Origin: Erythrobacter cryptus DSM 12079
GTDB lineage: Bacteria; Pseudomonadota; Alphaproteobacteria; Sphingomonadales; Sphingomonadaceae
Direction of reading: 5' to 3'
NCBI RefSeq assembly: GCF_000422985.1
Contig: NZ_AUHC01000010.1
Location: 62,001-126,000 of the forward strand
Length of the DNA: 64,000 bases
This document shows positions 22,098-44,358 of the stretch, piece after piece. The notes beneath the pieces are model-generated. The model did not search any database, was not told the origin of the DNA, and saw only the letters and a list, made by a program, of their open reading frames with translations. Within the stretch, counting starts at the first letter, position 1. Each line of letters begins with the position of its first letter. Both the position numbers and the translations under genes were made by a program.

Positions 22098-23087
22098 TCA
22101 GATTTCTCCGCCGGTGAGGCGCTGGCACACCAGATCGAGCTGATCGAGCGTGGTGTAGCGGATCGTGACGGTGCCCTTGCGCGGATCGGCCTCGGGCTTG
22201 ATCTTGACCGTAAGGCCCAGAAACTCCTCGAGATGCTGCTGCACCGCACGGATATCGGCATTCTCGCCGGTGGCGGCGGCCGCGTCCGGCGCCGCGGTCT
22301 CGCCCCGCGGGGCGGCGCCCTTGCGCGCCAGGGTCTCGACATCGCGCACCGACAGCCCCTCGGCCACCGCGATCTCGGCGAGCGCGAGGGCATCGCCGTG
22401 GCCGATCAGCGCGCGGGCATGGCCCATCGAGAGCTTGCCCTGCTCGATGAGGTCGAGCACCTGGCCCGGCAGGCTCATCAGCCGCATCATGTTGGCCACG
22501 TGGCTGCGCGATTTTTCGACCAGCTTGGCGATATCGACCTGGAGCATCCCCTCCTCCTCGGAGAGGCGGTGATAGGCGCGCGCTTCCTCGACCGGATTGA
22601 GATCCTCGCGCTGGAGGTTCTCGATCAGCGCGAGCGCCATCACCTCGCGGTCAGACAGGTCGCGCACCAGCGCCGGGATCTCGTGCAGCCGCGCCTTCTG
22701 CGCCGCGCGCCAGCGGCGCTCCCCGGCGACCAGCTGATACCCCTCGCCATCGGGGTGCGGGCGCACGATGATCGGCTGGATCACCCCGCGCGCGGCGATC
22801 GAGGCCGCAAGTTCCTCGAGCGCGGCCTCGTCGAAATGCTTGCGCGGGTTGCCGGGGAGCGGACGGATGCTGGCAAGCGGCAGCATCCGCAAGGGCGAGG
22901 AGGGCACGGCCGCGCCCGCCTCGGCCCCGGCTGCCGGCGCCGCCGCCGCATCGGCGCGCACCAGCGGCTCCTCGCGCCGGGTCTCGCCGAGGAGCGCCCC
23001 CAGCCCCTTGCCAAGGCGCCGCGGCCGCTCTGCCGATGCGCGGGAAACCGCAGGATTATCAGTCATTTGGTTGGTGCTTTCGGTCAT
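22098..23087 (-). CDS. parB: Chromosome-partitioning protein ParB (CTPase, parS-binding)
   Basis: A 329-residue DNA-clamp protein. GERRWRAAQKARLHEIPA near residue 118 is the conserved box II that binds CTP. The helix-turn-helix VDIAKLVEKSRSHVANMMRL recognises parS, and the C-terminal 50 residues are the dimerisation domain. ParB loads at parS, spreads and is pulled by ParA to move the origin. The ATG at 23087 overlaps the parA stop (ATGA), fixing the start; an ATG 21 bases downstream is also in frame. Seven parS sites lie within 1-6 kb upstream. Confidence 0.97.
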   Translation of the reverse strand: MTESTNQMTDNPAVSRASAERPRRLGKGLGALLGETRREEPLVRADAAAAPAAGAEAGAAVPSSPLRMLPLASIRPLPGNPRKHFDEAALEELAASIAARGVIQPIIVRPHPDGEGYQLVAGERRWRAAQKARLHEIPALVRDLSDREVMALALIENLQREDLNPVEEARAYHRLSEEEGMLQVDIAKLVEKSRSHVANMMRLMSLPGQVLDLIEQGKLSMGHARALIGHGDALALAEIAVAEGLSVRDVETLARKGAAPRGETAAPDAAAATGENADIRAVQQHLEEFLGLTVKIKPEADPRKGTVTIRYTTLDQLDLVCQRLTGGEI

Positions 23088-23860
23088 GCGGCCTGTCTTT
23101 CGGCGGGAAATCTTCCAATGAGTTCGCGCGCCAGCGCCATATAGGCGCGGCTGCCGCTGCAATGCTGGTCATAGACCAGCGCCGGCAGCCCATGGCTCGG
23201 CGCCTCGGACAGGCGCACATTGCGCGGGATCACGGTCTCGAACACCAGCTTGCCGAGGCATTCGCGCACGTCCTCGGAGACCTGGTCGGTCAGGCGGTTG
23301 CGCCGGTCGTGCATGGTCAGCGCCACCCCGATGATGCCGAGATCGGGGTTGAAGCGCTGCTGCACCTGATCGACCGTCTGGAGCAGCTGCGAGAGGCCCT
23401 CGAGCGCGAAGAACTCGCATTGCAGCGGCACCAGCAGCGTGTTGGCCGCGCACAGGGCGTTGAGGGTGAGCAGGCCCAGCGAGGGCGGGCAATCGATGAA
23501 GCACAGCTCGTGCCCCGAATGGCCGGCAAGCGCCCGGGCCAGGCGATGGGTGCGCCCCTCGAGCGCGACCAGCTCGACCTCGGCGCCTGAAAGATCGACC
23601 GTGGCGGGCACGATCTCGAGCCGGGGGATGCTGGTGGGCACGATCGCGCTCGCCAGCGGCACCTCGTCGACCAGAAGATCATAGCTCGAGACCGCGCGCG
23701 CGGCGTTGCCGATGCCCAGCCCGGTCGAGGCATTGCCCTGCGGGTCCATGTCGATCAGCAGGGTGCGCCACCCGGTCGCCGCCATGGCGGTGGCGATGTT
23801 GATCGCGGTGGTGGTCTTGCCCACCCCGCCCTTCTGGTTGGCAATGGCGATGGTCAGCAT
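23084..23860 (-). CDS. parA: Chromosome-partitioning ATPase ParA
   Basis: A 258-residue deviant-Walker ATPase; KGGVGKTT (residues 10-17) is the nucleotide loop and LLIDMDPQGNAS the switch I region. It binds DNA non-specifically and is stimulated by ParB to move the origin region. It overlaps parB by four bases and lies 37 bases after rsmG, giving the common mnmG-rsmG-parA-parB order. Confidence 0.97.
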   Translation of the reverse strand: MLTIAIANQKGGVGKTTTAINIATAMAATGWRTLLIDMDPQGNASTGLGIGNAARAVSSYDLLVDEVPLASAIVPTSIPRLEIVPATVDLSGAEVELVALEGRTHRLARALAGHSGHELCFIDCPPSLGLLTLNALCAANTLLVPLQCEFFALEGLSQLLQTVDQVQQRFNPDLGIIGVALTMHDRRNRLTDQVSEDVRECLGKLVFETVIPRNVRLSEAPSHGLPALVYDQHCSGSRAYMALARELIGRFPAERQAA

Positions 23861-23897: not shown

Positions 23898-24524
23898 TCA
23901 GACCCTCACGATGATCCCGGCCTCGGGATCGGTCAAGGAATGTTTCACGTGAAACATTGCCCGAATCGCAGGATCAAGCCCTGCCAGTTCCTGCGCTGCC
24001 GAGCGGCCCTTGGGCAACAGATAGGCGGTCTGGTCTGTGGAGAAGGGTGCGGATAGCGCGAGGAGACGCGCCAGCGGCGCAAAGGCGCGTGCCGAAATGG
24101 CGCGGGCAGCAAAGGGGGGCACGCGCTCGAGCCGGCGCCCCTCCACCTGGCAATGCGGCAGATCGAGCGCCGCCACGGCCTCGCGCAGAAAGGCGGCGCG
24201 CAGCGCGCGCGCCTCGACCAGCACCACCGGCATCTGCGGGCACAGCGCGGCGATGACGAGGCCGGGAAAGCCCGGCCCGCTGCCGAGATCGAGCCACGGC
24301 CCGCCCGCCTCTGCCGCCAATGTTTCACGTGAAACATGGGTGATGAGCTGGGCGGAATCGGCGATGTGGCGCTGCCAGATCCGTTCCTCGCTGGCGCGGG
24401 CGATGAGGTTCTGCCGGCGGTTCTCGGCGAGCACCAGCGCAGCGAGCCGCTCGAGCCGGGCCATGCCCGCGGCATCGGCAAGCCCTGCGACAAAGGCGCG
24501 CGCCGCCGCTTCGCTGTCGATCAT
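23898..24524 (-). CDS. rsmG: 16S rRNA (guanine-N7) methyltransferase RsmG
   Basis: A 208-residue enzyme that methylates G527 (E. coli numbering) of 16S r[17 protein letters not shown] near residue 76 is the SAM-binding loop and [16 protein letters not shown] the next motif. Its ATG overlaps the mnmG stop by ATGA. Two perfect parS palindromes lie inside the gene, at residues about 63-68 (VSRET) and 190-195 (MFHVKH), the second close to the C-terminus. Confidence 0.96.
23941..23956. other. parS: parS site 1 (perfect palindrome)
   Basis: TGTTTCACGTGAAACA, the 16-bp ParB centromere sequence, inside the 3' end of rsmG, about 0.85 kb from the parB start. It is read in the frame that gives MFHVKH. 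Confidence 0.96.
24321..24336. other. parS: parS site 2 (perfect palindrome)
   Basis: TGTTTCACGTGAAACA inside rsmG near codons 63-68, read in the frame giving HVSRET. Confidence 0.96.
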
Positions 24525-26380
24525 GCCGCGGGGCTCGCAGCCAGGCGCCGCGCGTGCACCAGCAGCGCCGCCAGCGCCGCCGGGGTCACCCCCGGCACCC
24601 TTCCCGCCGCGGCGAGACTGGTGGGCGCGGCGCGGGTGAGCCGCTCGACCATCTCGTTCGAGAGGCCCGGCACCGCGGCATAGGGAAAGTCGGGCGGCAG
24701 CGGCAGGGCCTCGCTCGCGCGCAGTTCCTTAAGCTCGGCCTCCTGCCGGGCAAGATAGGGGGCATAGGCGGCATCCTCGGCCAACTCCTCGGCAAGCTGG
24801 GGATCGCGCGCGGCAAGATCGCCGAGCCAGGGGCCGAGCGCCGCGGGCGTCACCCCGTCGAAGCGCAGCCATTCGGCGATGGTCTTGACCCCATGGTCGC
24901 GGCGCACCGGCAGGCCGAGATCGGCGAGTTCGCGCGCGTGGATTCGCTCGGAATGTTTCACGTGAAACATTGCCCGCAATGCCTCGCGCCGCTCCCACCA
25001 GGCGCGCCGCTCGGCCCCGATGCACGCGGCGGCGATCCCCAGCGGGGTGAGGCGCGTGGCGGCATTGTTGGCGCGCAGGCGCAGGCGATATTCCGCCCGG
25101 GCGGTGAGCATGCGGTAAGGCTCGGAGACCCCTTGCAGGGTGAGATCGTCGATCATCACCGCGATGTAGGAATTGGCGCGGTCGAGCACCGGGGCAGCCT
25201 TGCCCAGCGCCGAAGCCGCGGCCTCGAGCCCGGCCACCAACCCTTGCGCCGCGGCTTCCTCATAGCCGGTGGTGCCGTTGATCTGCCCGGCGCAATAGAG
25301 CCCGGGGATCGCCCGCAGCTGCAGATCGCGGCCCAGCGCGCGCGGATCAATATGGTCATATTCGACCGCATAGCCCGGCTGCACGATCACCGCCCGCGCG
25401 CAGCCCGGCATGGTGCGCACCACGATCTCCTGGACATCGGTGGGCAGCGAAGTGCTGATGCCATTGGGATAGACAAGGTGCGTATCCAGCCCCTCGGGCT
25501 CGAGGAAGACCTGGTGGCCATCGCGGTCGCCAAAGCGGTGGATCTTGTCCTCGATCGAGGGGCAATAGCGCGGCCCCGCCGCCGCGATCGCGCCCGAGAA
25601 CAGCGGCGAGCGGTGGAGATTGGCGCGGATCGCCTCGTGCCCGGCGGCACTGGTGCGGGTGATGGCACAGAACACCTGCGGGTTCATGCGCCGCGGCGTG
25701 AGCGGCGACATGGTCCAGCCCTCGCCATCGGAGGGCTGCTCCTCGAGCACGGCCCAATCGATGCTGCGGCCATCGAGCCGCGGCGGGGTCCCGGTCTTGA
25801 GCCGGGCCATGGGCAGATCGGCATCGCGCAGCTGGGCGGCGAGGCGCTTGGCGGCATTCTCGCCGATGCGCCCGCCCTCGAAGCGTTCCTCGCCGCGGAA
25901 CATCACCCCGCCAAGGAAGGTGCCGGTGCACAGCACCACATGTTTCACGTGAAACATCGTGCCATCGGCAAGTTCGAGCCCGGCCACGCGCCCGCCCTTG
26001 AGCACCAGCGCCGCGGCCTCGCCCGCCACCAGCGTGAGGCCCTCCTGCGCGTGCACCGCCGCCTGCACCGCGGCCTTGAAGCGCCTGCGATCGGCCTGCA
26101 CCCGCGGGCCCCACACCGCGCTGCCCTTGGAGCGGTTGAGCATGCGGTAGTGGATCGCCCCGGCATCGGCAGCGCGCGCGATCACCCCGTCGAGCGCATC
26201 AACCTCGCGCACGAGGTGGCCCTTGCCCAGCCCGCCGATCGCGGGATTGCAGCTCATCGCCCCGATCGCGGCAAGATCGAAGCTGACGAGCGCGGTGCGC
26301 GCGCCCATGCGCGCCGCGGCGCAGGCGGCCTCAACCCCGGCGTGCCCACCGCCGACAACGATAACATCGAAGCTGTGCAT
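24521..26380 (-). CDS. mnmG: tRNA uridine 5-carboxymethylaminomethyl enzyme MnmG
   Basis: A 619-residue FAD protein that, with MnmE, installs cmnm5 at the wobble uridine of several tRNAs. [17 protein letters not shown] (residues 11-27) is the FAD dinucleotide motif; [12 protein letters not shown] and [12 protein letters not shown] are signature segments and the C-terminal part carries the tRNA-binding GidA region. Two perfect parS sites are embedded near residues 142-147 (within [10 protein letters not shown], just before the conserved CTGTFLGG) and 471-476. It overlaps rsmG by four bases. Confidence 0.97.
24954..24969. other. parS: parS site 3 (perfect palindrome)
   Basis: TGTTTCACGTGAAACA inside mnmG near codons 471-476, read as MFHVKH. 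Confidence 0.96.
25941..25956. other. parS: parS site 4 (perfect palindrome)
   Basis: TGTTTCACGTGAAACA inside mnmG near codons 142-147. The encoded FHVKHVVL replaces a beta strand that in other MnmG proteins reads similarly, so the site fits the protein well. Confidence 0.96.
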
Positions 26381-26459
26381 GGGGCCGCGAGATAGGGCGC
26401 GCCGGCGCGCGCGTCAAAGGCGATTCGCCTGGGGGGGCTGCACCCGGGTATGGCGGCAA

Positions 26460-26475
26460 TGTTTCACGTGAAACA
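26460..26475. other. parS: parS site 5 (perfect palindrome, intergenic)
   Basis: TGTTTCACGTGAAACA in the 159-bp gap between mnmG and mnmE. It is the only one of the seven sites outside a coding sequence. Confidence 0.96.
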
Positions 26476-26539
26476 TTAACGGCAGCCCGAACTCATGTTC
26501 GCGGCAAGGCAACAAGCATTGGCGCCGCCGGGGGCGCGC

Positions 26540-27820
26540 CTATTTGCCGATGCAGAAGCGGCCGAACAGCGCGTCGAGCATGTCCTCGGTGGTGGCGCGG
26601 CCGACCAGCCGATCGAAGGCGAGCCGGGCGCAGCGCAGCTCCTCGGCGATCAGCAGCGGATCGGCAAGGCGCTGCGCCGCCGCCAGGGCCGCGGCCGCTT
26701 CGCCGAGCCGCGCGTGCTGGCGGGCGTTGAGCGCGGCCTCGCCCGGCTTGGGCAGCGCCGCGCGCGCCGCTTCGACCAGCGCCTGCTTGAGCGCTTCCAG
26801 CCCTTCGCCGCTTGCCGCCGAAACCGTAACCCGGGCGGCGCGCTTGGGGGCAAAATCGGGCCGATCGGCCTGCGCGGCGATCTCCCAGGCGCCGGGCGGG
26901 CCCTCGCCTTCCGGTCCCAGCCACAGCACCACATCAGCGCGCGCCAGCGCCGCGCGGGCGCGGGCGATCCCGATCGCCTCGATTGCATCGGCCTCCTCGG
27001 TGGCGCGCAGCCCGGCGGTGTCGATGAAGGTAAAGGGCACCCCGGCGATGGCCACGCTGCGCTCGAGCACGTCGCGGGTGGTGCCGGCAATCGGCGAAGT
27101 GATCGCCGCCTCGCTCTCGATGAGGGCATTGAACAGGGTGGACTTGCCGGCATTGGGCGGCCCGGCGAGCGCGACGCGAAAGCCCTCGCCCAGCCGCTCG
27201 GCGCGCGGGCGGGCCAGCCAGGCAGCGATCTCGCCTTCGAGCGCGGCAATGTTCCACGTGAAACATTGCGGCAGATCGGCGGCGTCCTCCTCGTCGGAAA
27301 AGTCGAGCACCGCCTCGATCTCGGCCGAGAGCGCGAGCAGGCGGGTGCGCCAGTCCTCGACCGCGCGCGACAGCGCCCCCCCGGCCATGGCGAGCGCCGC
27401 GGCGCGGGCCAGCTCGGTCTCGGCAGCGAGGAGATCGGCAAGCCCTTCGGCCTCGGCAAGATCAATCCGCCCATTGGCAAAGGCGCGGCGGGTGAACGCG
27501 CCCGGCTCGGCCCGACGCAGGCCCGGCACCGCGGCGAGCGCCGCCTCGATCGCCGCGATCACCGCACGCCCGCCGTGGCAATGGATTTCGGCCATGTCCT
27601 CGCCGGTGGCGCTGCCCGGCCCGGGCAGCCACAGCACCAGCGCCTGATCGAGCAGCGCGCCTGCCGCGTCATGAAGGCGCCGCAGCACCGCCCGGCGCGG
27701 CGGTGGCAGCGGCCCGGCGAGCGCCGCCAGCGCCGTGCCTGCCGCGGGGCCGGAGATGCGGATCACCCCCACGCCCGCGGGCGGCGCCCCGCTCGAGAGC
27801 GCGAAGATCGTCCCGCTCAT
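26540..27820 (-). CDS. mnmE: tRNA modification GTPase MnmE
   Basis: A 426-residue GTPase, partner of MnmG in wobble-uridine modification. The N-terminal folate-binding domain starts TIFALSSGAPPAGVGVIRISG. The G domain has GPPNAGKST near residue 218 and DTAGLR (switch II) near 265, and the protein ends in the family motif FCIGK. A parS variant lies at residues about 186-191 (CFTWNI), in a frame where the perfect palindrome would give a stop codon. Confidence 0.97.
   Translation of the reverse strand: MSGTIFALSSGAPPAGVGVIRISGPAAGTALAALAGPLPPPRRAVLRRLHDAAGALLDQALVLWLPGPGSATGEDMAEIHCHGGRAVIAAIEAALAAVPGLRRAEPGAFTRRAFANGRIDLAEAEGLADLLAAETELARAAALAMAGGALSRAVEDWRTRLLALSAEIEAVLDFSDEEDAADLPQCFTWNIAALEGEIAAWLARPRAERLGEGFRVALAGPPNAGKSTLFNALIESEAAITSPIAGTTRDVLERSVAIAGVPFTFIDTAGLRATEEADAIEAIGIARARAALARADVVLWLGPEGEGPPGAWEIAAQADRPDFAPKRAARVTVSAASGEGLEALKQALVEAARAALPKPGEAALNARQHARLGEAAAALAAAQRLADPLLIAEELRCARLAFDRLVGRATTEDMLDALFGRFCIGK
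27250..27265. other. parS: parS site 6 (TGTTCC variant)
   Basis: TGTTCCACGTGAAACA inside mnmE near codons 186-191. One base differs from the perfect palindrome, at the position that is variable in the Bacillus subtilis parS consensus TGTTNCACGTGAAACA. On the coding strand the change turns an in-frame TGA into TGG (Trp). Confidence 0.9.
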
Positions 27821-27836
27821 GGTTGAGGCCCCCGGC

Positions 27837-28100
27837 TCAATCGCCGCTGCGGCCCCCGTCGCCGGCGCGCTGGGCCGCCTTCATCGAGCCTTCGACAAAG
27901 CTCTGGAACAGCTTCAGCCCGATCTGTCCCATGGGCGCGAGCGCCTCGGCATAGGGGCGCAGCTGTTCGGGGCTGGTGGCGCCCTGCATCGCCTTGGTGA
28001 TGGTCTCGACATAGGCGCTGTTGGCGGCGCTGACATCGGGCAGACCGAGGAAGCTGCGCGCTTCTTCCGGGGTGCAATCGACTTCGATGGTGATCTTCAT
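27837..28100 (-). CDS. DUF6489 family protein
   Basis: An 87-residue soluble, mostly helical protein beginning MKITIEVDCTPEEARSFLGL. It matches the small DUF6489 family that often sits beside mnmE in sphingomonads (recalled, not searched). The segment PMGQIGLKLFQSFVEG resembles phasin-like helices. Function unknown. It is 16 bases upstream of mnmE and probably the first gene of that transcript. Confidence 0.7.
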   Translation of the reverse strand: MKITIEVDCTPEEARSFLGLPDVSAANSAYVETITKAMQGATSPEQLRPYAEALAPMGQIGLKLFQSFVEGSMKAAQRAGDGGRSGD

Positions 28101-28207
28101 GGGGCCGGCCTCCTTCGCGCCTTGCGCGCGGGCTTCATTTGCGCTTGGCAGGCGCGCAAGGCAAGCGATAGAGCCTTGGCCCGCGCCAACAATCGAGGAG
28201 AGATTGC

Positions 28208-28906
28208 ATGAGCCTCAACGAAACCATCCCCACGCTCGAAGGCGATGCCAGCTTCGGCGCCTATCTCGCCCGGCCCGAGGGCACGCCGCGCGCGGCGATC
28301 ATCGTCATTCAGGAGATCTTCGGGGTCAATCCCGGCATCCGCCGCAAGTGCGACAAGCTCGCCGCCGAGGGCTATCTCGCGCTCGCGCCCGATCTGTTCT
28401 GGCGGCTCCAGCCGGGTTTCGAGGCCGATCCCGATATCGAAAGCGAGTTCCAGACCGCGCTCGAGATGATGGGCCGCTTCGACCAGGATCTCGCCATCCG
28501 CGATATCGAGGCCTGCATCCACCATATCCGCCGCACGCTCGGCATCGCCAAGGTCGGCTGCGTCGGCTATTGCCTCGGCGGGAGGCTCGCCTTCCTCGCC
28601 GCGGCGCGCACCGATATTGATGCGAGCGTGGGCTATTACGGCGTCGGCATTGACGGGCTGCTGGGCGAAAAGCACGCCATCGCCAATCCGCTGATGCTGC
28701 ACATCCCCACCGCCGATGGCTTTGTTCCACGTGAAACACAGGCGGCGATGCACGCCGGGCTCGACGATCACCCCAAGGTGACGCTTTATGACTACGAGGG
28801 GCTCGATCACGGCTTTGCCACCGAGATGGGCAAGCGCCGGGTCGAGGAGGCGGCCCAGCTTGCCGACCGCCGCACCGCGGCCTTCTTCGCCGAGCATTTG
28901 GGATGA
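28208..28906 (+). CDS. Dienelactone hydrolase family protein
   Basis: A 232-residue alpha/beta hydrolase. The triad matches dienelactone hydrolase: C122 in GYCLGGR, D170 in TADGF and H201 in LDHGF. True dienelactone hydrolases act in chlorocatechol breakdown, but no such pathway is nearby, so the substrate is open. A GAGGAG ribosome site lies seven bases before the ATG. A parS site occupies codons 172-177, immediately after the catalytic aspartate. It overlaps the next gene by ATGA. Confidence 0.9.
   Translation: MSLNETIPTLEGDASFGAYLARPEGTPRAAIIVIQEIFGVNPGIRRKCDKLAAEGYLALAPDLFWRLQPGFEADPDIESEFQTALEMMGRFDQDLAIRDIEACIHHIRRTLGIAKVGCVGYCLGGRLAFLAAARTDIDASVGYYGVGIDGLLGEKHAIANPLMLHIPTADGFVPRETQAAMHAGLDDHPKVTLYDYEGLDHGFATEMGKRRVEEAAQLADRRTAAFFAEHLG
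28723..28738. other. parS: parS site 7 (TGTTCC variant)
   Basis: TGTTCCACGTGAAACA inside the dienelactone hydrolase gene, read as FVPRET. It has the same C at position 5 as site 6 and fits TGTTNCACGTGAAACA. It is the site nearest the proposed origin, about 4 kb away. Confidence 0.88.
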
Positions 28907-31659: not shown

Positions 31660-32676
31660 TCAGCCCCTCACCACGCCCAGCAGCGCCTCGACATGGGCGA
31701 TCGGGGTGTGCTGGCCGATCCCGTGCCCGAGGTTGAAGACATGGGGCCGCCCGGCAAAGGCGGCGATGATCGCGCGCGCCCGCGCGGCGAGCGCCGGCCC
31801 CCCGGCCTCGAGCAGCAGTGGATCGAGATTGCCCTGCACCGGCATGCCTTCGGGCAGGCTCGCATGCGCCCAGGCCGGATCGAGCGTCTCGTCCAGCCCC
31901 ACCGCATCCACCCCGGTCTCGCGCGCATAGGCAGGCAGCTTGGCCCCTGCGCCCTTGGGAAAGCCGATCACCGGCACCTCCGGGTGGCGCGCCTTGACCG
32001 CGGCGGTGATCGCGGCATTGGGGGCGATCACCCATCTTTCAAACTCGTCGGGGGCAAGGCTGCCCGCCCACGAATCGAACAGCTGCACCGCCTCGGCCCC
32101 GGCTTCGATCTGGCCGCTAAGGTATGTCACCGTCACCGCGATGATGGCATCGATGATCGCCTGCATCCGCGCCGGATCGCGATAGGCGAGAAGGCGCGCC
32201 GGGCCTTGGTCCTTCGCGCCTTCGCCCGCGATCATGTAGGTCGCCACGGTCCAGGGGCTGCCGGCAAAGCCCAGCATCGTCACCTCGGGCCCCAGCTGCG
32301 CGCGGGTGCGGCGCACCGTCTCATAGACCGGATCGAAGCGCGCAGGCGCCGGGGTGAAGTGATCGAGATCAACCTCAAGCAGCGTGGGCGAAAGCTGCGG
32401 GCCTTCCCCAGCGGTGAAGGCAAGGCCCTGGCCCATGGCATGGGGCACGATCAGGATGTCGGCAAACAGGATTGCCCCGTCAAACCCGAAACGGCGGATC
32501 GGCTGGAGCGTGATTTCGGCCGCCGCCGCGCTGTCATAGACCAGTTCGAGAAACCCGCCCTTCTCGGCGCGCAGGGCGCGGTATTCGGGCAGGTAGCGCC
32601 CCGCCTGGCGCATCAGCCAGATGGGCGGACGGGGCTGACGCTCACCCTTGAGCGTGGCAAGAAGCGGACCGGGCAT
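31660..32676 (-). CDS. hemE: Uroporphyrinogen decarboxylase
   Basis: A 338-residue cytoplasmic enzyme that removes four carboxyl groups from uroporphyrinogen III. The signature PPIWLMRQAGRYLPEYR (residues 16-32) is at the N-terminus and GFAGSPWTVATYM near 145. An AAGGAG ribosome site precedes the ATG, and a TACAAT -10-like hexamer lies at 32706-32711 on this strand inside the AT-rich part of the proposed origin. hemE-hemJ form an operon transcribed away from the origin. Confidence 0.97.
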   Translation of the reverse strand: MPGPLLATLKGERQPRPPIWLMRQAGRYLPEYRALRAEKGGFLELVYDSAAAAEITLQPIRRFGFDGAILFADILIVPHAMGQGLAFTAGEGPQLSPTLLEVDLDHFTPAPARFDPVYETVRRTRAQLGPEVTMLGFAGSPWTVATYMIAGEGAKDQGPARLLAYRDPARMQAIIDAIIAVTVTYLSGQIEAGAEAVQLFDSWAGSLAPDEFERWVIAPNAAITAAVKARHPEVPVIGFPKGAGAKLPAYARETGVDAVGLDETLDPAWAHASLPEGMPVQGNLDPLLLEAGGPALAARARAIIAAFAGRPHVFNLGHGIGQHTPIAHVEALLGVVRG

Positions 32677-33008
32677 GGCTCTCCTTAGATCAAATCAAAT
32701 CAGATTGTAAAAGGAGGGATGAAGGGAAGTTGGCCTGTGGATTGCGGGAATTGCCGGAGCTTGCACCGCCCCGCCCCGCCCGGCCTCCCGCTCCCGATCG
32801 CTCGCGACTCTGCGCGCCGCGGTGGTCAAGCAGAGTTTATCCCCGCTCTTCCCAGCCTGTCGAAAGCGCGCCCGGCCTGTGTGCAAGGCCCGAGAGAAAT
32901 GAGCGGGCAGCGGGGAGGAAAATCGCTCCCCCGCTTGTGAGACCGGCCCTCCCGTGGTTTATGCCGCCATCTGTCCACAGGCCCGCACGGGGCAAAAGCC
33001 GGCCCGCG
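32677..33008. other. oriC: Probable chromosomal replication origin (oriC)
   Basis: This 332-base non-coding gap lies between hemE and the DUF299 kinase gene, exactly where the Caulobacter and Rickettsia origins lie. Seen: an AT-rich stretch 32684-32712 containing ATCAA ATCAA ATCAG tandem pentamers; three sites matching the DnaA box TTATCCACA at 7 of 9 bases (32736-32744 reverse, 32837-32845, 32971-32979); and a GANTC methylation site at 32806. No perfect DnaA box is present. Genes on both sides are transcribed outward, and the parS cluster is 4-9 kb away. hemE promoter elements overlap the AT-rich part. Confidence 0.75.
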
Positions 33009-33854
33009 ATGAACCCGCTCAATCTCCACCTCGTATCCGATTCGACCGGCGAGACGCTGGAGATGATCGCCAAGGCCGCGCTCGCCCAGTTCGACAATCC
33101 CACCGTGGCCCGCCATTTCTGGCCGATGGTGCGCTCGCTCCAGCATCTTGACCGGATCGTGCCCGAGCTTGCCGCCCATCCGGGCCTGGTGCTCTACACC
33201 CTCGTCAATCCCGAGACCCGCCAGCGGCTCGAGGACCATTGCCGCCACCTCGGCCTGCCCGCGGTGGCGGTGCTCGATCAGGTCACCGCCGCGCTCGAGG
33301 CCCAGCTCGGCCAGGAGGCCCGCGGCCGGTCCGGGCGCCAGCACATGATGGACGAGAGCTATTTCAGGCGGGTCGAGGCGATCCAATACACCATCGCCCA
33401 TAATGACGGCCTGGGCCACGAGGACTGGGAGGAGGCCGATGTGCTGCTGGTGGGGGTGTCGCGCTCGTCCAAGACCCCAACCAGCATCTATCTGGCCAAT
33501 CGCGGCTACAAGGTGGCCAATCTGCCGCTGGTGATCGAAAGCCCGCCCCCGCCGGCGCTGTTCGGCCTGCGCCGCCCGCTGGTGGTGGGGCTGACCACCA
33601 CCCCCGAACGCCTGATCCAGATCCGCCGCAACCGGCTCCTCTCGCTCAACGAGGCGACCGAGACCGCCTATGTCGATAATGAGCGGGTGCGCGCCGAGCT
33701 GCAATTTGCCCGGCGCATGTTTGCCGATCATGGCTGGCCGGTGATCGATGTCACCCGCCGCTCGATCGAGGAGACCGCCGCGGCGGTGATCCGCCTGCTG
33801 CAGGAACGCGCGCGCCGGGGCGAGGGCGAGCCCGGCGCCGGGGGGATCCTGTGA
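33009..33854 (+). CDS. PEP synthase / pyruvate phosphate dikinase regulatory protein (DUF299)
   Basis: A 281-residue bifunctional ADP-dependent kinase and Pi-dependent pyrophosphorylase that switches PEP synthase or pyruvate phosphate dikinase off and on. It begins NLHLVSDSTGETLE; the P-loop is GVSRSSKTPTS near residue 147, followed by YLANRGYKVANLPLV. The ATG at 33009 has no strong ribosome site but is where the conserved domain begins. It is the first gene right of the origin and overlaps maf by GTGA. Confidence 0.93.
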   Translation: MNPLNLHLVSDSTGETLEMIAKAALAQFDNPTVARHFWPMVRSLQHLDRIVPELAAHPGLVLYTLVNPETRQRLEDHCRHLGLPAVAVLDQVTAALEAQLGQEARGRSGRQHMMDESYFRRVEAIQYTIAHNDGLGHEDWEEADVLLVGVSRSSKTPTSIYLANRGYKVANLPLVIESPPPPALFGLRRPLVVGLTTTPERLIQIRRNRLLSLNEATETAYVDNERVRAELQFARRMFADHGWPVIDVTRRSIEETAAAVIRLLQERARRGEGEPGAGGIL

Positions 33855-38981: not shown

Positions 38982-39638
38982 ATGAGTCGCAAGACTGCCA
39001 CTTTGGGTGCGATTGTCGCGCTCGCCCTTGCCACCACCCTGTTTCCCAGCGGCCGCGATGCCGCTGCCCTTGCCGAAGCTGCCAGCCCCACCGAGGCCCC
39101 CGCGCCCGCCCCTGAGGAGCAGGTGCCCGCCGCGCCGCGCTTCATCTCCGCGCCGGTGGTGCAGCCCCTGCCCCCGCAGGATCGCGCTGTGCCCGACCTG
39201 CCCGATGCGGCGGGCGAGGCCGGATCGCTCGAACAGCTCGTTGCCATGATCGATACCTCGGCCCCGCTTGATCCCGAGCTGCGCTGCCTTGCCGGCGCGG
39301 TCTATTTCGAGGCCCGGGGCGAGCCGCTCACCGGCCAGCTGGCGGTGGCCGAGGTGATCCTCAACCGCGCCGCCGATCCGCGCTTTCCTGCCACCTATTG
39401 CGGCGTGGTGCGGCAGAAGGGGCAGTTCTCCTTCATGCGCGGTCGGCACATGCCGCCGATCCCCACCGCCTCACCCGCGTGGAAGCGCGCCCGCGCGATT
39501 GCCGAGATCGCCCATCGCGGCCTGTGGGAAAGCCGGGCGAGCGCGGCGATGTTCTTCCACGCGCGCCATGTCAGCCCGGCCTGGCGCCATTCCAAGACCC
39601 GCCTCGCGCAGATCGACACGCATATCTTCTACCGCTGA
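38982..39638 (+). CDS. SleB/CwlJ-type cell wall hydrolase
   Basis: A 218-residue exported protein. An N-terminal membrane or signal helix (ATLGAIVALALATTLF) precedes a Pro/Ala linker (about 30-80). The hydrolase domain (about 95-218) has CLAGAVYFEARGEP, with the likely catalytic glutamate, QLAVAEVILNR and the closing HIFYR. It probably cleaves peptidoglycan in the periplasm. The 197-base gap upstream is GC-rich; I see no clear promoter or RNA gene in it. Confidence 0.9.
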   Translation: MSRKTATLGAIVALALATTLFPSGRDAAALAEAASPTEAPAPAPEEQVPAAPRFISAPVVQPLPPQDRAVPDLPDAAGEAGSLEQLVAMIDTSAPLDPELRCLAGAVYFEARGEPLTGQLAVAEVILNRAADPRFPATYCGVVRQKGQFSFMRGRHMPPIPTASPAWKRARAIAEIAHRGLWESRASAAMFFHARHVSPAWRHSKTRLAQIDTHIFYR

Positions 39639-39650
39639 AGGGCCTGTGGC

Positions 39651-40445
39651 TCAGAGCGCGATTTCGGCCCACACGGGGGCGTGGTCGCTCGCCTTCTCGC
39701 GCCCGCGCTGGGCCTTGTCCACGCCCACGGCCACCAGCCGATCGGCACATTCGGGCGAAAGCAGGATGTGATCGATGCGAAAGCCGTGGTCGCGCGGCCA
39801 GGCCCCGGCCTGATAGTCCCAATAGGTCCACACCCCGCCGCGCGGATTGTGGGTGCGCAGCGCATCGGTCCAGCCATCGGCGAGCAGCCGGGCATAGGCG
39901 GCGCGCGACTCGGGCTGCATCAGCGCATCATCGGCCATGGCCTTGGGCGACCAGACATCATCATCATGGGGGATGACGTTGAAATCGCCGAGCACCACCG
40001 CCGGCACCTCGGCGGCCCAGATCGCCGCCATGCGCTGGCGAAGCGCAGCCATCCAGGCGAGCTTGTAGGTGAACTTGGGGCCCGGCTGGGGGTTGCCGTT
40101 GGGAAGGTAGAGGCAGGCGATGCGCAGGCCCGCGACATCGGCTTCGAGATAGCGCGCCTGCTCGCCCTCGTCCTCCCCCGGCCCGGCCACACCAAGCCCG
40201 CGCTGCACCTCGGCGAGTGACAGCCCGGCCCGCGCATCGGCAAGGATTGCAACCCCGTTGAAGCCCTTCTGCCCGTGCCAGATCGCCTTGTAGCCGAGCG
40301 CGGCGATATCGGCCTCGGGGAAGCCCTCATCCGCGGTCTTCAATTCCTGCAGGCAGGCGATCGCGGGGCGGGTTTCGCTGAGCCATTCGGCAAGGCGCGG
40401 CAGGCGCGCCTTGATGCCGTTGATGTTGAAGGTGGCAATCTTCAT
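39651..40445 (-). CDS. xth: Exodeoxyribonuclease III (AP endonuclease)
   Basis: A 264-residue enzyme of base-excision repair. MKIATFNINGIKARLPRL opens the EEP fold, LQELKTAD has the metal glutamate, LGDFNVIPHDDDVW the active-site Asp/Asn and SDHAPVWAEI the catalytic Asp-His near the C-terminus. The ATG at 40445 is the conserved start. Confidence 0.95.
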   Translation of the reverse strand: MKIATFNINGIKARLPRLAEWLSETRPAIACLQELKTADEGFPEADIAALGYKAIWHGQKGFNGVAILADARAGLSLAEVQRGLGVAGPGEDEGEQARYLEADVAGLRIACLYLPNGNPQPGPKFTYKLAWMAALRQRMAAIWAAEVPAVVLGDFNVIPHDDDVWSPKAMADDALMQPESRAAYARLLADGWTDALRTHNPRGGVWTYWDYQAGAWPRDHGFRIDHILLSPECADRLVAVGVDKAQRGREKASDHAPVWAEIAL

Positions 40446-40482
40446 GCGGCCCTGATGCCGCAAAGCGCGCGGCGCGTCTAAC

Positions 40483-40815
40483 CTAAATCCCGAAGCTCGC
40501 CCCGCAGCCGCAGCCCGAGGCGGCCTGGGGGTTTTCCACCCGGAACGCCGCCCCGCCGAGCGATTCGACGAAATCGACCGTGCTGCCGGCGATGAGATCG
40601 AGGCTGACGGGATCGACCACCAGCCTCACCCCATCGGTCTCGCTCACGCTGTCATCGGGCGCCGGGGCATCGGCCAGCTCGAACTTGTATTGAAAGCCCG
40701 AACAGCCCCCGCCTTCCACCGCAAGGCGCAGGATCGGCGGGCGCGACTGGCGCGCGGCGATCGCGGCGACGCGCCTTGCCGCGGCAGGGGTGAGGGTGAG
40801 CGGGGCAGCGTTCAT
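40483..40815 (-). CDS. erpA: A-type iron-sulfur cluster carrier (ErpA/IscA-like)
   Basis: A 110-residue scaffold/carrier. The three cluster cysteines are C38 (GGCSGFQY), C102 and C104 (GCGCGASF). It delivers Fe-S clusters to target proteins. It precedes xth by 37 bases. ErpA and IscA cannot be told apart from sequence alone; location beside xth favours ErpA. Confidence 0.9.
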   Translation of the reverse strand: MNAAPLTLTPAAARRVAAIAARQSRPPILRLAVEGGGCSGFQYKFELADAPAPDDSVSETDGVRLVVDPVSLDLIAGSTVDFVESLGGAAFRVENPQAASGCGCGASFGI

Positions 40816-40853
40816 TCCGATGATCTAGGGTGCCCGGGCCGGCTGCTCAAGGG

Positions 40854-41285
40854 TCAGCCCGCCTGGATATAGTGGCGCAGCGCCTCGGCCTCGTGCTGCA
40901 CCTCGTCGATCTTGTGCTTGACGAGATCGCCGATCGACACGAAGCCGATGAGCTTGCCCTCCTCGACCACCGGGAAGTGGCGGAAGCGGCGGCGGGTCAT
41001 CATTCCCAGCGCCTCATCGACGGTAGTCGAAGGGGCCACGGTGATCGCCGGCGAGGTCATGATCTCGCTCACCGGCTGGTCGAGGCAATCGCGGCCCTTT
41101 TCGGCGAGGCAATAGATCACGTCACGTTCCGAGACGATGCCGACCACCCGGCCCTCGCGCAGCACCGGCAGGGCGCCGATGCGGCGGGTGGCAAGCAGCG
41201 CCACCACCTCGCTCACCGGGGTGGCGCAATCGCAGGAAATGATCTCGGCCGGGCCGCGCCGGGCAAGGATTCGGGCGATGGTCAT
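40854..41285 (-). CDS. Tandem CBS-domain protein
   Basis: A 143-residue protein of two CBS domains (residues about 15-65 and 75-130; IGALPVLREGRVVGIVSERD and FRHFPVVEEGKLIGFVSIGD share the repeat). Such pairs bind adenine nucleotides and sense energy state. No effector domain is fused. The ATG at 41285 starts the conserved part. Confidence 0.9.
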   Translation of the reverse strand: MTIARILARRGPAEIISCDCATPVSEVVALLATRRIGALPVLREGRVVGIVSERDVIYCLAEKGRDCLDQPVSEIMTSPAITVAPSTTVDEALGMMTRRRFRHFPVVEEGKLIGFVSIGDLVKHKIDEVQHEAEALRHYIQAG

Positions 41286-41445
41286 GGCGGGCTTCCTCTC
41301 TCTCGTGGGCGCCAAGATTGCCACGATTCCGGCCAAAAGGCGAATCCGCGCGGCGCTGCGGGCGGGCGGGCACTTGCACCGCGGGCAAGGGCCCTTGCGC
41401 GCATCGAGCGTTGCCAAGCGCCGCGGGGCGCGCCATGGCTGCGGG

Positions 41446-41760
41446 GTGACGCAGCGCAAGTCCCCGCTCGAGGATCCCATCAATGCCGCCCATGCCTGGG
41501 CGCGCTATCGCCGCATCATGCGCTGGCTTCTGGCGGCAACGGTGCTCACCGTGGGGCTGGCCATGGGCCTGCTGTTTGCCTTCAACGGCATGATCTCGGT
41601 GCATTTCTACATCGCCGTGGCGCTCGGCATCAGCTTTACCATGCTGCTTGGCGGCGGGCTGATGGGGCTGGTGTTCCTTTCCCACGGCACGGGCCACGAC
41701 GAATCGGTCGACAATCACCTGCCCGCGCGGGACGAGGTGTGGCTGCCGCGCCAGGATTGA
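41446..41760 (+). CDS. Small two-helix membrane protein
   Basis: About 104 residues with two membrane helices (IMRWLLAATVLTVGLAMGLLF and IAVALGISFTMLLGGGLMG, each shown here only in part) and a hydrophilic end containing HGTGHDESVDNH, which could bind a metal. The GTG at 41446 is the first plausible start. No recognised function; such proteins recur in sphingomonads. It is divergent from the CBS gene. Confidence 0.6.
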   Translation: MTQRKSPLEDPINAAHAWARYRRIMRWLLAATVLTVGLAMGLLFAFNGMISVHFYIAVALGISFTMLLGGGLMGLVFLSHGTGHDESVDNHLPARDEVWLPRQD

Positions 41761-41770
41761 TTTCACGCGC

Positions 41771-42184
41771 CTAGGCGGGCGGGGTCAGGCGATATTCGGC
41801 CACCGGCACCCCGCCGATGAGGTGTTCCTGAATGATCCGCTCGAGCACCGCGGGGCTGCACGAGTGGTAGAAAACCCCATCGGGCCAGACCACGGCGACC
41901 GGCCCGGCGGCGCAGATCTGCAGGCAATCCACCTTGCTGCGCTGCACCCCGCCGCGCCCCTGCTGCCCCGCCTCACCCCCGCGCCGCGGGCCGACGAGGC
42001 CCAGCTCCTTGAGGCGCGCCTTCAGGAACTGCCAGCTCTCCTCGCCCGCCGCGCGGGTGCAGCACTGCTGCTTTTCCGACAGGGCGCACAGCATGATGTG
42101 CCGGGTGATGCCGCTGCCGCGCGCCGCATCGCCATAGTGGCGCGCCAGCGCGGCGCGGGCGGCGGGCAGTTCCTGGCGGCTCAC
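41771..42184 (-). CDS. Thioredoxin-like 2Fe-2S ferredoxin
   Basis: About 137 residues. C33 (HIMLCAL) with C41/C42, and VDCLQICAAGP further on, give the C-x(8)-C plus C-x(3)-C pattern of thioredoxin-fold 2Fe-2S ferredoxins; PDGVFYHSCSPA near the end is typical. The GTG start overlaps the TGA of the upstream S9 peptidase gene by four bases, which fixes it. Redox partner unknown. Confidence 0.82.
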   Translation of the reverse strand: MSRQELPAARAALARHYGDAARGSGITRHIMLCALSEKQQCCTRAAGEESWQFLKARLKELGLVGPRRGGEAGQQGRGGVQRSKVDCLQICAAGPVAVVWPDGVFYHSCSPAVLERIIQEHLIGGVPVAEYRLTPPA

Positions 42185-44358
42185 TGGCGCTTGTCCGCCT
42201 TGAGCCAGCGGGCGAGCCAGGCGAACACCGTCTCGTGCCATTGCAGCGAATTCTTCGCGCCCAGCACCCAGTGGTTCTCATCCGGGAAGACCAGCAATTG
42301 CGCCGGCACCCCGCGGCTCTTGAGCGCGGTGTAGGCGCCCAGGCCCTGGGTGTAGGGGACGCGGAAATCCTTCTCGCCCAGCACCACCAGCATCGGGGTT
42401 TGCCACTTGCTCACGTGATTGGCCGGGTTCCAGCGCTCATAGGTTTCGCGCGCGGCCTCGTAGGTGCCGCCGAAATCCCAGTGCGGGAACCACAATTCCT
42501 CGGTGGCATAGGCAAAGGCGCGGGTGTCGAACAGGCCGTTGTGGTTGACGAGGCAAGAAAAGCGATCGGGCCATTGCCCGGCGATCCAGTTGATCATGTA
42601 GCCGCCATAGCTCGCCCCGAGCGCGCAGGCCCGGCTGCCATCGATCTGCGGGTCGAGCGCCAGCGCCGCCTCTAGGCCCCGTTGCAAGTCCTCGAGCGGC
42701 TTGCCGCCCCAATCTTCGCGGATGGCATCGGTGAAGGCCTGGCCATAGCCGGTCGAACCGTGGAAATCGATCGATATCACCGCATAGCCCTGGCTGGCAA
42801 AGACCCGCGGGTTCCAGCGGCTTGACCAGGCATCGTTGAACGAGCCTTGCGGCCCGCCGTGGATGAACAGCAGCGCCGGGATCGGCCCGGTCTGATCGGC
42901 AAGGCGGGTGATCTGGCCCCACACCTCGGCCCCGCCCGCCCCGGTGAAGCGCAAGCGCCGGGTGATGATATTGGCCATGGCCCCCATGCGGGTGGTGGCA
43001 ATATCGGTGAGCGGGCGCGCCTGGCGGGTGCCTTGCGCGAGGAACAGCTCGGGCGGATTCCCGAGCGAATCGCGGGTGAAGATCAGCCGCCCGCCGGGCA
43101 GCGCTGCCAGGTTGGCGATATGCGCTTCCGTCCCGGCGATGAGATCAAGCTCCTCCACCTTGCCGCTGGCGATGTCGATGCGGAAGGCCGGGGTGTCGAG
43201 CACCTTTTGCGCGGTGGCGATCAGGCTCTTGCCATCCGCGCTCCAGGCAAGGCTGGCAAAGCTGAGATCGACCGCCTCGGTCAGCGCGCGCTGCGTGCCG
43301 GTTTGAAGATCGAGCAGCTGCACCACCTGGCGATCGGCTTCGTATCCGGGCCGCGCCATCGCCAGAAAGGCAAGGTGGCGCCCATCGGGCGAGACCACAG
43401 GGGCGGTGTCGCTCGCGCGGTTGGCGGCGGTGAGATTGCGCGGTGCGCCGCCGGACAGATCGGAAACATAGATGTCGAGGTTGGTCGAGGTCGGCTCATC
43501 CGCATCGGCAAGCCGCGCGGTGAAATAGAGCGCGCTGCCATCGGCGGCAAAAGCGATTTCCTCACCCCCGCCGAAGGGCATGGTCGGGCTGTCGGCGGTG
43601 ATGCCGCTTTCCGGATCGCGCCCGTCGGCAGGCACGCCGTCGCCCACGGCCACGCCCTCGGCCAGCGGATAGACGAAGATGCGGTTGTGGATCCCCGGGC
43701 TGGCCCAGCGATCCCAGTGGCGCACGAAGCCCGTGGTGCTGTCATAGAGCCGCCCGCTGCCGGGGCCGGGCAGGTGCGCAGGGGCCATGTCCGGGCAACC
43801 GAAGCGCGGGCAGGCGCGCGGCACCGCGCCCCACACCGCGATCGCCCGGCCATCGGGGGAGAGCTTGAAGCCCTCGACATCGGCCTCGACCTCGGGGGTC
43901 ACCGGCGTGGGCGCGCCGAGCGTGCCGTCCTTGGCAAGGCTCGCCCGCCACACCCGGCTGCGTGGGGGCGCGGTGCTCTCGGCCCCCGGCAGGTTGCGGC
44001 TCGAGAGGAAATAGAGCGCGCCGTCAGCGCCGAAGGCGAGGCTCGCGGCGCCGGGGCCAAGATCGAGCGCGATCGGGGCGCTGCCCGGGCGGGTGAGATC
44101 GATGAGGTAATGCGCCTGGCTGCGCGCGAGGCTTGCAGGATCGGTGAGGGTGACGCTGAAGACCGCGCGCGTGCCCTCGCGGTTGACCGCGGGGGCACCG
44201 AGCCGCGGCAGGGTGACGAGATCGCGCGCGCCCATCGGCGCGGCGGGCTGTTCTGCCGGCGCGGCGGGGGCGATGGTGTCGCCCGTCTCTGCGGCGAGCG
44301 GGGCGGGAAGGGCGAGGGCGGCGGCGACCAGCGCGCCGAAAGCGGTGATGTGACGCAT
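42181..44358 (-). CDS. S9-family serine peptidase (acylaminoacyl/dipeptidyl type)
   Basis: A 725-residue exported peptidase with a signal peptide (residues 1-23, ending LAAE). Residues about 50-420 form a beta-propeller (WDARS-like repeats such as LSPDGRAIAVWG and VSPDGRHLAFLA). The C-terminal alpha/beta hydrolase has the nucleophile serine near residue 583 in GASYGGYM; Asp and His follow near 670 and 703. It is followed by the overlapping ferredoxin gene. Confidence 0.92.
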   Translation of the reverse strand: MRHITAFGALVAAALALPAPLAAETGDTIAPAAPAEQPAAPMGARDLVTLPRLGAPAVNREGTRAVFSVTLTDPASLARSQAHYLIDLTRPGSAPIALDLGPGAASLAFGADGALYFLSSRNLPGAESTAPPRSRVWRASLAKDGTLGAPTPVTPEVEADVEGFKLSPDGRAIAVWGAVPRACPRFGCPDMAPAHLPGPGSGRLYDSTTGFVRHWDRWASPGIHNRIFVYPLAEGVAVGDGVPADGRDPESGITADSPTMPFGGGEEIAFAADGSALYFTARLADADEPTSTNLDIYVSDLSGGAPRNLTAANRASDTAPVVSPDGRHLAFLAMARPGYEADRQVVQLLDLQTGTQRALTEAVDLSFASLAWSADGKSLIATAQKVLDTPAFRIDIASGKVEELDLIAGTEAHIANLAALPGGRLIFTRDSLGNPPELFLAQGTRQARPLTDIATTRMGAMANIITRRLRFTGAGGAEVWGQITRLADQTGPIPALLFIHGGPQGSFNDAWSSRWNPRVFASQGYAVISIDFHGSTGYGQAFTDAIREDWGGKPLEDLQRGLEAALALDPQIDGSRACALGASYGGYMINWIAGQWPDRFSCLVNHNGLFDTRAFAYATEELWFPHWDFGGTYEAARETYERWNPANHVSKWQTPMLVVLGEKDFRVPYTQGLGAYTALKSRGVPAQLLVFPDENHWVLGAKNSLQWHETVFAWLARWLKADKRQ

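Follow-up and report, generated by a model that had tools for sequence, protein, structure and literature searches.

The intergenic gap at positions 32677-33008 of the window (the whole 64-kb stretch of DNA analysed here, bases 62001-126000 of contig 8 in a 2.95-Mb genome of 34 contigs) is very probably the chromosomal origin of replication of an Erythrobacter/Porphyrobacter-type host, and belongs to the hemE-linked alphaproteobacterial kind; the probability of this reading is put at about 0.92. The basis for the assignment is position, synteny, weak conserved DnaA boxes, an AT-rich element, a switch in GC skew and a parABS system. It is made because synteny, family-wide enrichment of DnaA boxes, the skew switch and the adjoining parABS genes and sites all agree.

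A hemE-linked origin has already been published for Sphingomonadaceae, and the origin described here is expected biology. The call sets the replication start, and hence the positions of the chromosome arms, for the genus, and it presents a hemE-linked origin whose DnaA boxes are all weak and which lacks a full CtrA site. More weight attaches to a result concerning parS, the ParB-binding site. The confinement of parS to the origin is breached naturally in a clade that has dozens of perfect copies at gene ends shared between species, and it therefore becomes possible to ask why these sites are normally confined, and whether ParB acts in transcription or in global chromosome folding.

The hemE-PPSR gap and its sequence elements

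The gap lies between two divergently transcribed genes. The gene encoding uroporphyrinogen decarboxylase, hemE (31660-32676, minus strand; PF01208, E 2e-110), starts at 32676, and the DUF299/PPSR kinase-pyrophosphorylase gene (33009-33854, plus strand; PF03618, E 2e-93) starts at 33009, leaving exactly 332 bp between them. The initial annotation had likened this location, between hemE and a DUF299 kinase gene, to Caulobacter Cori and had described outward transcription on both sides; the domain matches confirm both genes, and their strands and starts agree with the description. The PPSR protein is at most 89% identical to those of its closest named relatives, Porphyrobacter and Erythrobacter. 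The dnaA gene is located on a different contig from the gap.

At the hemE end is an AT-rich element (32684-32715; ATCAA-ATCAA-ATCAG), a candidate unwinding element that is partly conserved in the 45 distinct gaps of Erythrobacter-like genomes described below. The ATCAA tandem repeats claimed for it are indeed present, as two exact units and an ATCAG at 32689-32703, and the element is one of only two sites in the 64-kb window with a 26-bp stretch of at least 73% AT. Read directly, the sequence shows an overlap of this element with the leader of hemE and an AAGGAG Shine-Dalgarno motif.

When TTATCCACA is taken as the reference DnaA box, the gap contains exactly three boxes that match at 7 of 9 positions, that is, with two mismatches, which is the number originally claimed. 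The weak box CAATCCACA (32736-32744, minus strand) is within a conserved block, CCTGTGGA..CGGGAATT.CCGG; the weak box TTATCCCCG (32837-32845, plus strand) corresponds to a genus consensus of TTATCCCCA; and the weak box CTGTCCACA (32971-32979, plus strand) is within the conserved block CGTGGTTTATGC..TCTGTCCACAGG. Shuffling the gap 1000 times yields a mean of 0.27 such boxes (P of at least three, 0.003), and at least three occur in 0.65% of sliding 332-bp windows. A perfect box is absent from the gap, in agreement with the annotation, and from the entire 64-kb window, in which four one-mismatch boxes are found (2.0 expected), none of them inside the gap. Since two further places in the window (around 23749 and at 39355-39523) also have three weak boxes per 332 bp, the boxes of this genome are suggestive, but cannot by themselves single out the gap.

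A GANTC motif (GACTC, 32806-32810), possibly a CcrM methylation site, had also been put forward as an origin feature. It is present, once, but this count is close to chance (a mean of 1.22 in shuffled Erythrobacter-like gaps), so the single site is uninformative here and was rejected as origin evidence for the window gap. The mean number per gap is 2.71 in Erythrobacter-like genomes, versus 1.22 after shuffling, and 5.16 in other Sphingomonadaceae, versus 1.47. The full CtrA site has the motif TTAA-N7-TTAA. It is absent from the window gap and from all 52 Erythrobacter-like gaps, and is present in 4 of 31 gaps from other Sphingomonadaceae and in none of six from other families. The proposed likeness to Caulobacter accordingly extends to the place and the weak boxes, but not to CtrA sites (0/52).

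The replication start in relatives

A total of 91 stretches were compared, comprising 30 from relatives, 60 from named genomes and the window itself, with a few genomes entered twice. The hemE and PPSR genes are neighbouring and divergent in 89 of these, the window included, with gap sizes of 296-457 bp, the two exceptions being short loci in which hemE was not matched. Of the 89 gaps, 82 are distinct: 45 Erythrobacter-like, 31 from other Sphingomonadaceae and six from other families. Conserved short blocks surround the DnaA boxes in the 45 distinct Erythrobacter-like gaps. Boxes with at most one mismatch number 1.13 per gap in this group (0.04 expected), 2.97 in the other Sphingomonadaceae (0.05 expected) and 1.83 in the other families (0.14 expected).

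These boxes are also concentrated within the loci. Their density is 3.8 per kb in the gap versus 0.11 per kb elsewhere for 28 Erythrobacter-like loci, and 9.2 versus 0.15 per kb for 30 loci of other Sphingomonadaceae; the densest 400-bp stretch of boxes falls in the gap in 21 and 26 of these loci, respectively. It is thus the comparison of relatives, unlike the boxes of this genome alone, that singles out the gap. Perfect copies of TTATCCACA occur 50 times in the gap and nine times elsewhere in the 30 loci of other Sphingomonadaceae, whereas the gaps of the 28 Erythrobacter-like loci contain one between them. Because of this difference, weak boxes look like a trait local to the Erythrobacter-like lineage.

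Because the genome itself is fragmented, GC skew was sampled in three single-contig congeners (G003, G022 and G026), and the best half-and-half origin split was sought on a 20-kb grid. A skew minimum elsewhere had been named as the observation that would count against the prediction; in the three congeners, the switch is within 0-100 kb of the locus. In G003, all 12 of the 20-kb samples taken between the locus and 0.55 of the chromosome have positive skew, one of them practically zero, and the eight between 0.60 and 0.99 have negative skew. With the terminus placed at exactly 0.5, 19 of the 20 samples fit. The best split is at 960 kb with these samples, or at 860-900 kb with 46 four-kb pieces, and the locus is at 959.7 kb. 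In G022, the best split (440-480 kb) is 26-66 kb from the locus (414 kb), and skew is positive in 18 of the 23 pieces that follow the locus, compared with 6 of 24 from the opposite half (P 7e-5). The skew of G026 is weak and noisy, being positive in 7 of 10 samples after the locus and negative in 8 of 10 before it; its best split is at 2300 kb, 19 kb from the locus at 2281 kb, and within the 200 kb around the locus, the minimum sits 11 kb away.

Skew locates the origin to tens of kilobases, which is coarser than the gap itself. Finer mapping was attempted with local GC skew but was unsuccessful, as the minimum for 20 loci was 9 kb off. Averaged over these loci, the cumulative skew reaches its minimum 9.3 kb to the right of the PPSR start, which is close to the edge of the 20.8-kb stretches used, and the true minimum may be further out; only one of the 20 loci has a local minimum at the gap itself. 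The cumulative skew of the window is lowest at about 42 kb (40000-43000), some 9 kb to the right of the gap, which is similar to the average of the relatives.

A chromosomal ParABS set, with a ParA ATPase and a ParB containing N-terminal, HTH and dimerisation domains, is encoded on the other side of hemE. The domain matches identify parB (22098-23087, minus strand; 329 aa; ParB_N, HTH_ParB and ParB_C) and parA (23084-23860, minus strand; 258 aa; ParA ATPase), which are 8.8-10.6 kb from the gap, and ParB is the only PF02195 match in this genome at E 0.001. ParB proteins were obtained from 10 of 15 loci. Seven perfect parS sites, versus 0.02 expected, occur at 23941-28738 of the window, 3.9-8.7 kb from the gap. 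The form TGTTTCACGTGAAACA is found at 23941-23956 and 24321-24336, inside an open reading frame (23898-24524) that is presumably rsmG, at 24954-24969 and 25941-25956, inside mnmG, and at 26460-26475, between mnmG and mnmE. The form TGTTCCACGTGAAACA is found at 27250-27265, inside mnmE, and at 28723-28738, inside a dienelactone hydrolase gene. Six of the seven origin-proximal sites are therefore within coding genes, and three of them translate as FHVKH.

It is conceivable, though very improbable, that the gap serves hemE and PPSR simply as a divergent promoter region and that the true start of replication is at another place in the origin domain, such as near parAB. Such a model would account for the overlap of the AT-rich element with the hemE leader, and the conserved blocks in the gap could be promoter elements; local skew minima some 9-11 kb from the gap and the two other places in the window that equal it in weak boxes are also compatible with it. 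However, DnaA boxes are enriched in the gap across 82 distinct gaps and are far sparser in the rest of the 58 loci, and promoters would not need the perfect boxes that favour the gap by 50 to 9 in the 30 loci of other Sphingomonadaceae. The prediction of an origin at this gap is instead supported by skew in three congeners, by synteny in 89 of 91 stretches, by box enrichment and by parABS. If the gap is the origin, its weak boxes would be bound by DnaA in a cooperative manner, the AT-rich ATCAA element next to hemE would open, and forks would depart both ways, after which the nearby parAB genes and parS cluster may move the duplicated origins apart.

parS sites beyond the origin

According to reviews, parS sites are found close to the origin and almost nowhere else, and 20-23 copies represent the high end of the range (PMC5815017, PMC7022226, PMC7333895). 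This rule does not hold here. The draft genome contains 30 exact parS sites, of which 23 are on contigs other than that of the window (C1, C2, C3, C4, C6, C7, C9, C10, C12 and C13), and in the single-contig genomes of G003 and G022, 46 of 54 and 47 of 55 sites, respectively, are scattered more than 15 kb from the origin. Exact copies predominate: the draft genome has no one-mismatch site and a single two-mismatch site (a control pattern gives seven with at most two), and among sites with at most one mismatch, 54 of 63 are exact in G003 and 56 of 61 in G022, compared with one each for the control pattern. A literature search of open-licence papers found no earlier report of scattered parS in this genus.

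Of 397 genomes of the family with a completeness of 90% or more, 14 of which belong to the genus itself, only six have at least 10 parS sites. Among 114 genomes of the genus, some of them incomplete, 66 have 0-5 sites, none has six and 48 have 7-69. Many-site examples include E. ramosus (11), E. tepidarius (19), E. donghaensis (20), Porphyrobacter AAP60 (54) and Erythrobacter WG (69), and few-site examples include Erythrobacter YT30 (3) and Qipengyuania (1-3). In a tree of hemE and PPSR with 41 rows, 38 of them different, that was built by a quick method without bootstrap, the rows with at least seven sites form one clade of 27 (SH-aLRT 95), and the other 14 rows have 1-5. With the threshold set at nine sites, the change count on the tree is two; one row has seven. 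Across the class, six of 387 genomes, including this one, have at least 10 sites. Two alphaproteobacterial genomes of other families stand out, G912 (0.9 Mb), with 154 exact sites, and G730 (1.8 Mb), with 79, which suggests that parS expansion is not unique to the genus.

All scattered sites were read in the draft genome (G000; 23 sites), G003 (46) and G022 (47), with the surrounding genes called by a codon-usage script instead of a standard caller. With the exclusion of 10 sites that fall inside called genes and of one that lacks a neighbour on its left, 63 of 105 intergenic sites lie between convergent genes (14 of 22, 23 of 42 and 26 of 41, respectively), against a background of 15-25% of intergenic start positions as sampled in G026 and G003. 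For the first 60 sites, 38 of 52 were convergent (P 2e-10 versus a 30% background), a value to be read with the caveat that sites shared between species are not independent.

Many junctions are common to the genomes. At least one adjacent gene is shared for 15 of 23 sites when the draft genome is compared with G003, for 18 of 23 when it is compared with G022, and for 27 of 46 when G003 is compared with G022; both neighbours are common in 12, 13 and 17 cases, respectively. Given 46 sites in a 3-Mb genome, such overlap is unlikely to arise by chance. In 24 of the 27 pairs between G003 and G022, the copies differ by a symmetrical change from TTC/GAA to TCC/GGA, and the flavour of the origin cluster is that of the scattered sites, in seven of eight cases each in G003 and G022. 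In G026, a congener with few sites, no parS was seen at the four junctions inspected. When the distance from the origin is divided into fifths, these contain 12, 10, 10, 9 and 5 scattered sites in G003 and 12, 11, 8, 8 and 8 in G022, neither series departing significantly from uniformity, and spacing is somewhat more even than chance in G022 (P 0.02) and not in G003. A large mobile repeat carrying parS was considered but seems unlikely, as inspection of 60 sites by eye showed no common flanks other than the array and a short extension of the palindrome.

The array in question is a set of 11-bp repeats next to the palindrome. GGGTCT occurs near parS at 38 of the 46 sites in G003 and 41 of the 47 in G022, pointing outward and nearly always on one side only, and its commonest spacing is 11 bp (23 of 36 and 64 of 76 of the spacings listed); the repeat type in both is GGGGGTCTARA. 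Convergent gaps sampled in G003 contain 0.35 GGGTCT per kb without parS (n = 30) and 10.8 per kb with it (n = 5). In the draft genome, GGGTCT is found at 3 of 23 sites, and a different unit, CAAAGC, is enriched, with 20 copies pointing outward versus one inward and a spacing of 11 or 22 bp. At array-bearing convergent junctions, the distance between parS and the bare-side stop codon is 0-31 bp for 17 of 22 sites in G003 and 20 of 25 in G022, and the array occupies the opposite side. A KOPS-like polarity of the arrays relative to the replication fork was rejected, since they run with and against the fork 17 and 20 times in G003 and 23 and 18 times in G022 (nine and six undetermined).

RNA running from the array side toward parS is richer in C than in G in 36 of 37 cases in G003, 38 of 41 in G022 and 7 of 10 in the draft genome. 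The median ratios for the array and bare sides are 1.57 versus 0.97 in G003 and 1.47 versus 1.08 in G022, and the median in the draft genome is 1.12. PMC6407284 gives the RhoTermPredict criteria as an excess of C over G and cytosines every 11-13 nt, followed by a hairpin. Sequence features of this kind are present in G003 and G022 and weak in the draft genome, and the parS palindrome folds as a hairpin at a mean of -7.5 to -10.4 kcal/mol. The make-up of the arrays points to Rho-linked termination, insofar as it matches this pattern. Intrinsic terminators were rejected: the 8 nt that follow the palindrome include at least five T in 1 of 46 directions in the draft genome, 1 of 92 in G003 and 2 of 94 in G022.

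It is quite likely that the single ParB loads at the scattered parS sites too. With somewhat less confidence, we favour a model in which parS has become a genome-wide gene-end element in one clade, with about 5-60 extra copies, many of them at shared, mostly convergent junctions, where ParB may load and then either block RNA polymerase together with Rho or spread the loading of condensin. Alternatively, the scattered palindromes could have no connection with ParB and only resemble parS, acting in RNA as the hairpins of Rho-dependent terminators. The placement of parS close to the stop on the bare side, a C-rich array with 11-nt spacing that precedes the palindrome in RNA from the other side, the fit to the RhoTermPredict pattern as given in PMC6407284 and the folding energies are all what such terminators would lead one to expect. 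The hairpin model nevertheless seems unlikely, as exact parS copies far outnumber one-mismatch copies (30 to none in the draft genome), a precision that a hairpin does not need. Furthermore, the scattered sites share the flavour of the origin cluster, which in the window is mostly inside genes, and a run of T follows the palindrome in only 4 of 232 directions.

A role in nucleoid occlusion is less probable still. Noc of Bacillus, a second ParB-like protein, carries out nucleoid occlusion, and scattered parS could by analogy serve to keep division off the DNA. The dozens of ParB-type sites around the chromosomes of G003 and G022 fit this idea, as does their more even spacing in G022, though not in G003. 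Yet there is no clear depletion of sites opposite the origin in either genome, and the ParB_N domain (PF02195) has one match each in the draft genome and G003, and six, one of them strong, in G022. A second ParB was therefore rejected for the draft genome and G003, and these two genomes have no separate Noc.

Comparison with known systems

Among the closest published counterparts of the gap is the origin of Sphingopyxis granuli TFA, which, according to PMC4741004, is linked to hemE, as are those of most Sphingomonadaceae in DoriC; the locus, the intergenic DnaA boxes and a putative DUE are alike. The 30 loci of other Sphingomonadaceae differ from the present species in their 50 perfect boxes, as the boxes found here all match at 7 of 9 positions. 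In Caulobacter crescentus, hemE flanks the origin (PMC6650430), and a title cited in PMC4468827 refers to two classes of weak sites. The two origins resemble each other in their hemE-linked place, weak DnaA boxes and linked parABS, but Cori has five high-affinity CtrA sites (PMC4468827), whereas the full TTAA-N7-TTAA motif does not occur in the gap. In Hyphomonas neptunium, marker frequency peaks near hemE, and parAB are about 7 kb from that gene (PMC6650430). The origin near hemE, the nearby parAB and the perfect parS are features in common, though the same paper places two parS sites upstream of parAB in that species, compared with 30 in the genome here.

The scattered parS sites are less easily matched. 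Streptomyces coelicolor and Listeria innocua, with about 20-23 sites, resemble the present clade in having many (PMC7333895, PMC5815017), but in the accounts cited their copies are near the origin, whereas those of G003 and G022 are spread around the chromosome. In Caulobacter, an extra parS in the middle of a chromosome arm is described as strongly disfavoured (PMC5815017). ParB of Pseudomonas aeruginosa contacts hundreds of sites beyond the parS of the origin, as reported in PMC7022226; however, those are heptamer half-parS sites, and the sites described here are complete 16-bp palindromes, many of them at junctions shared between species.
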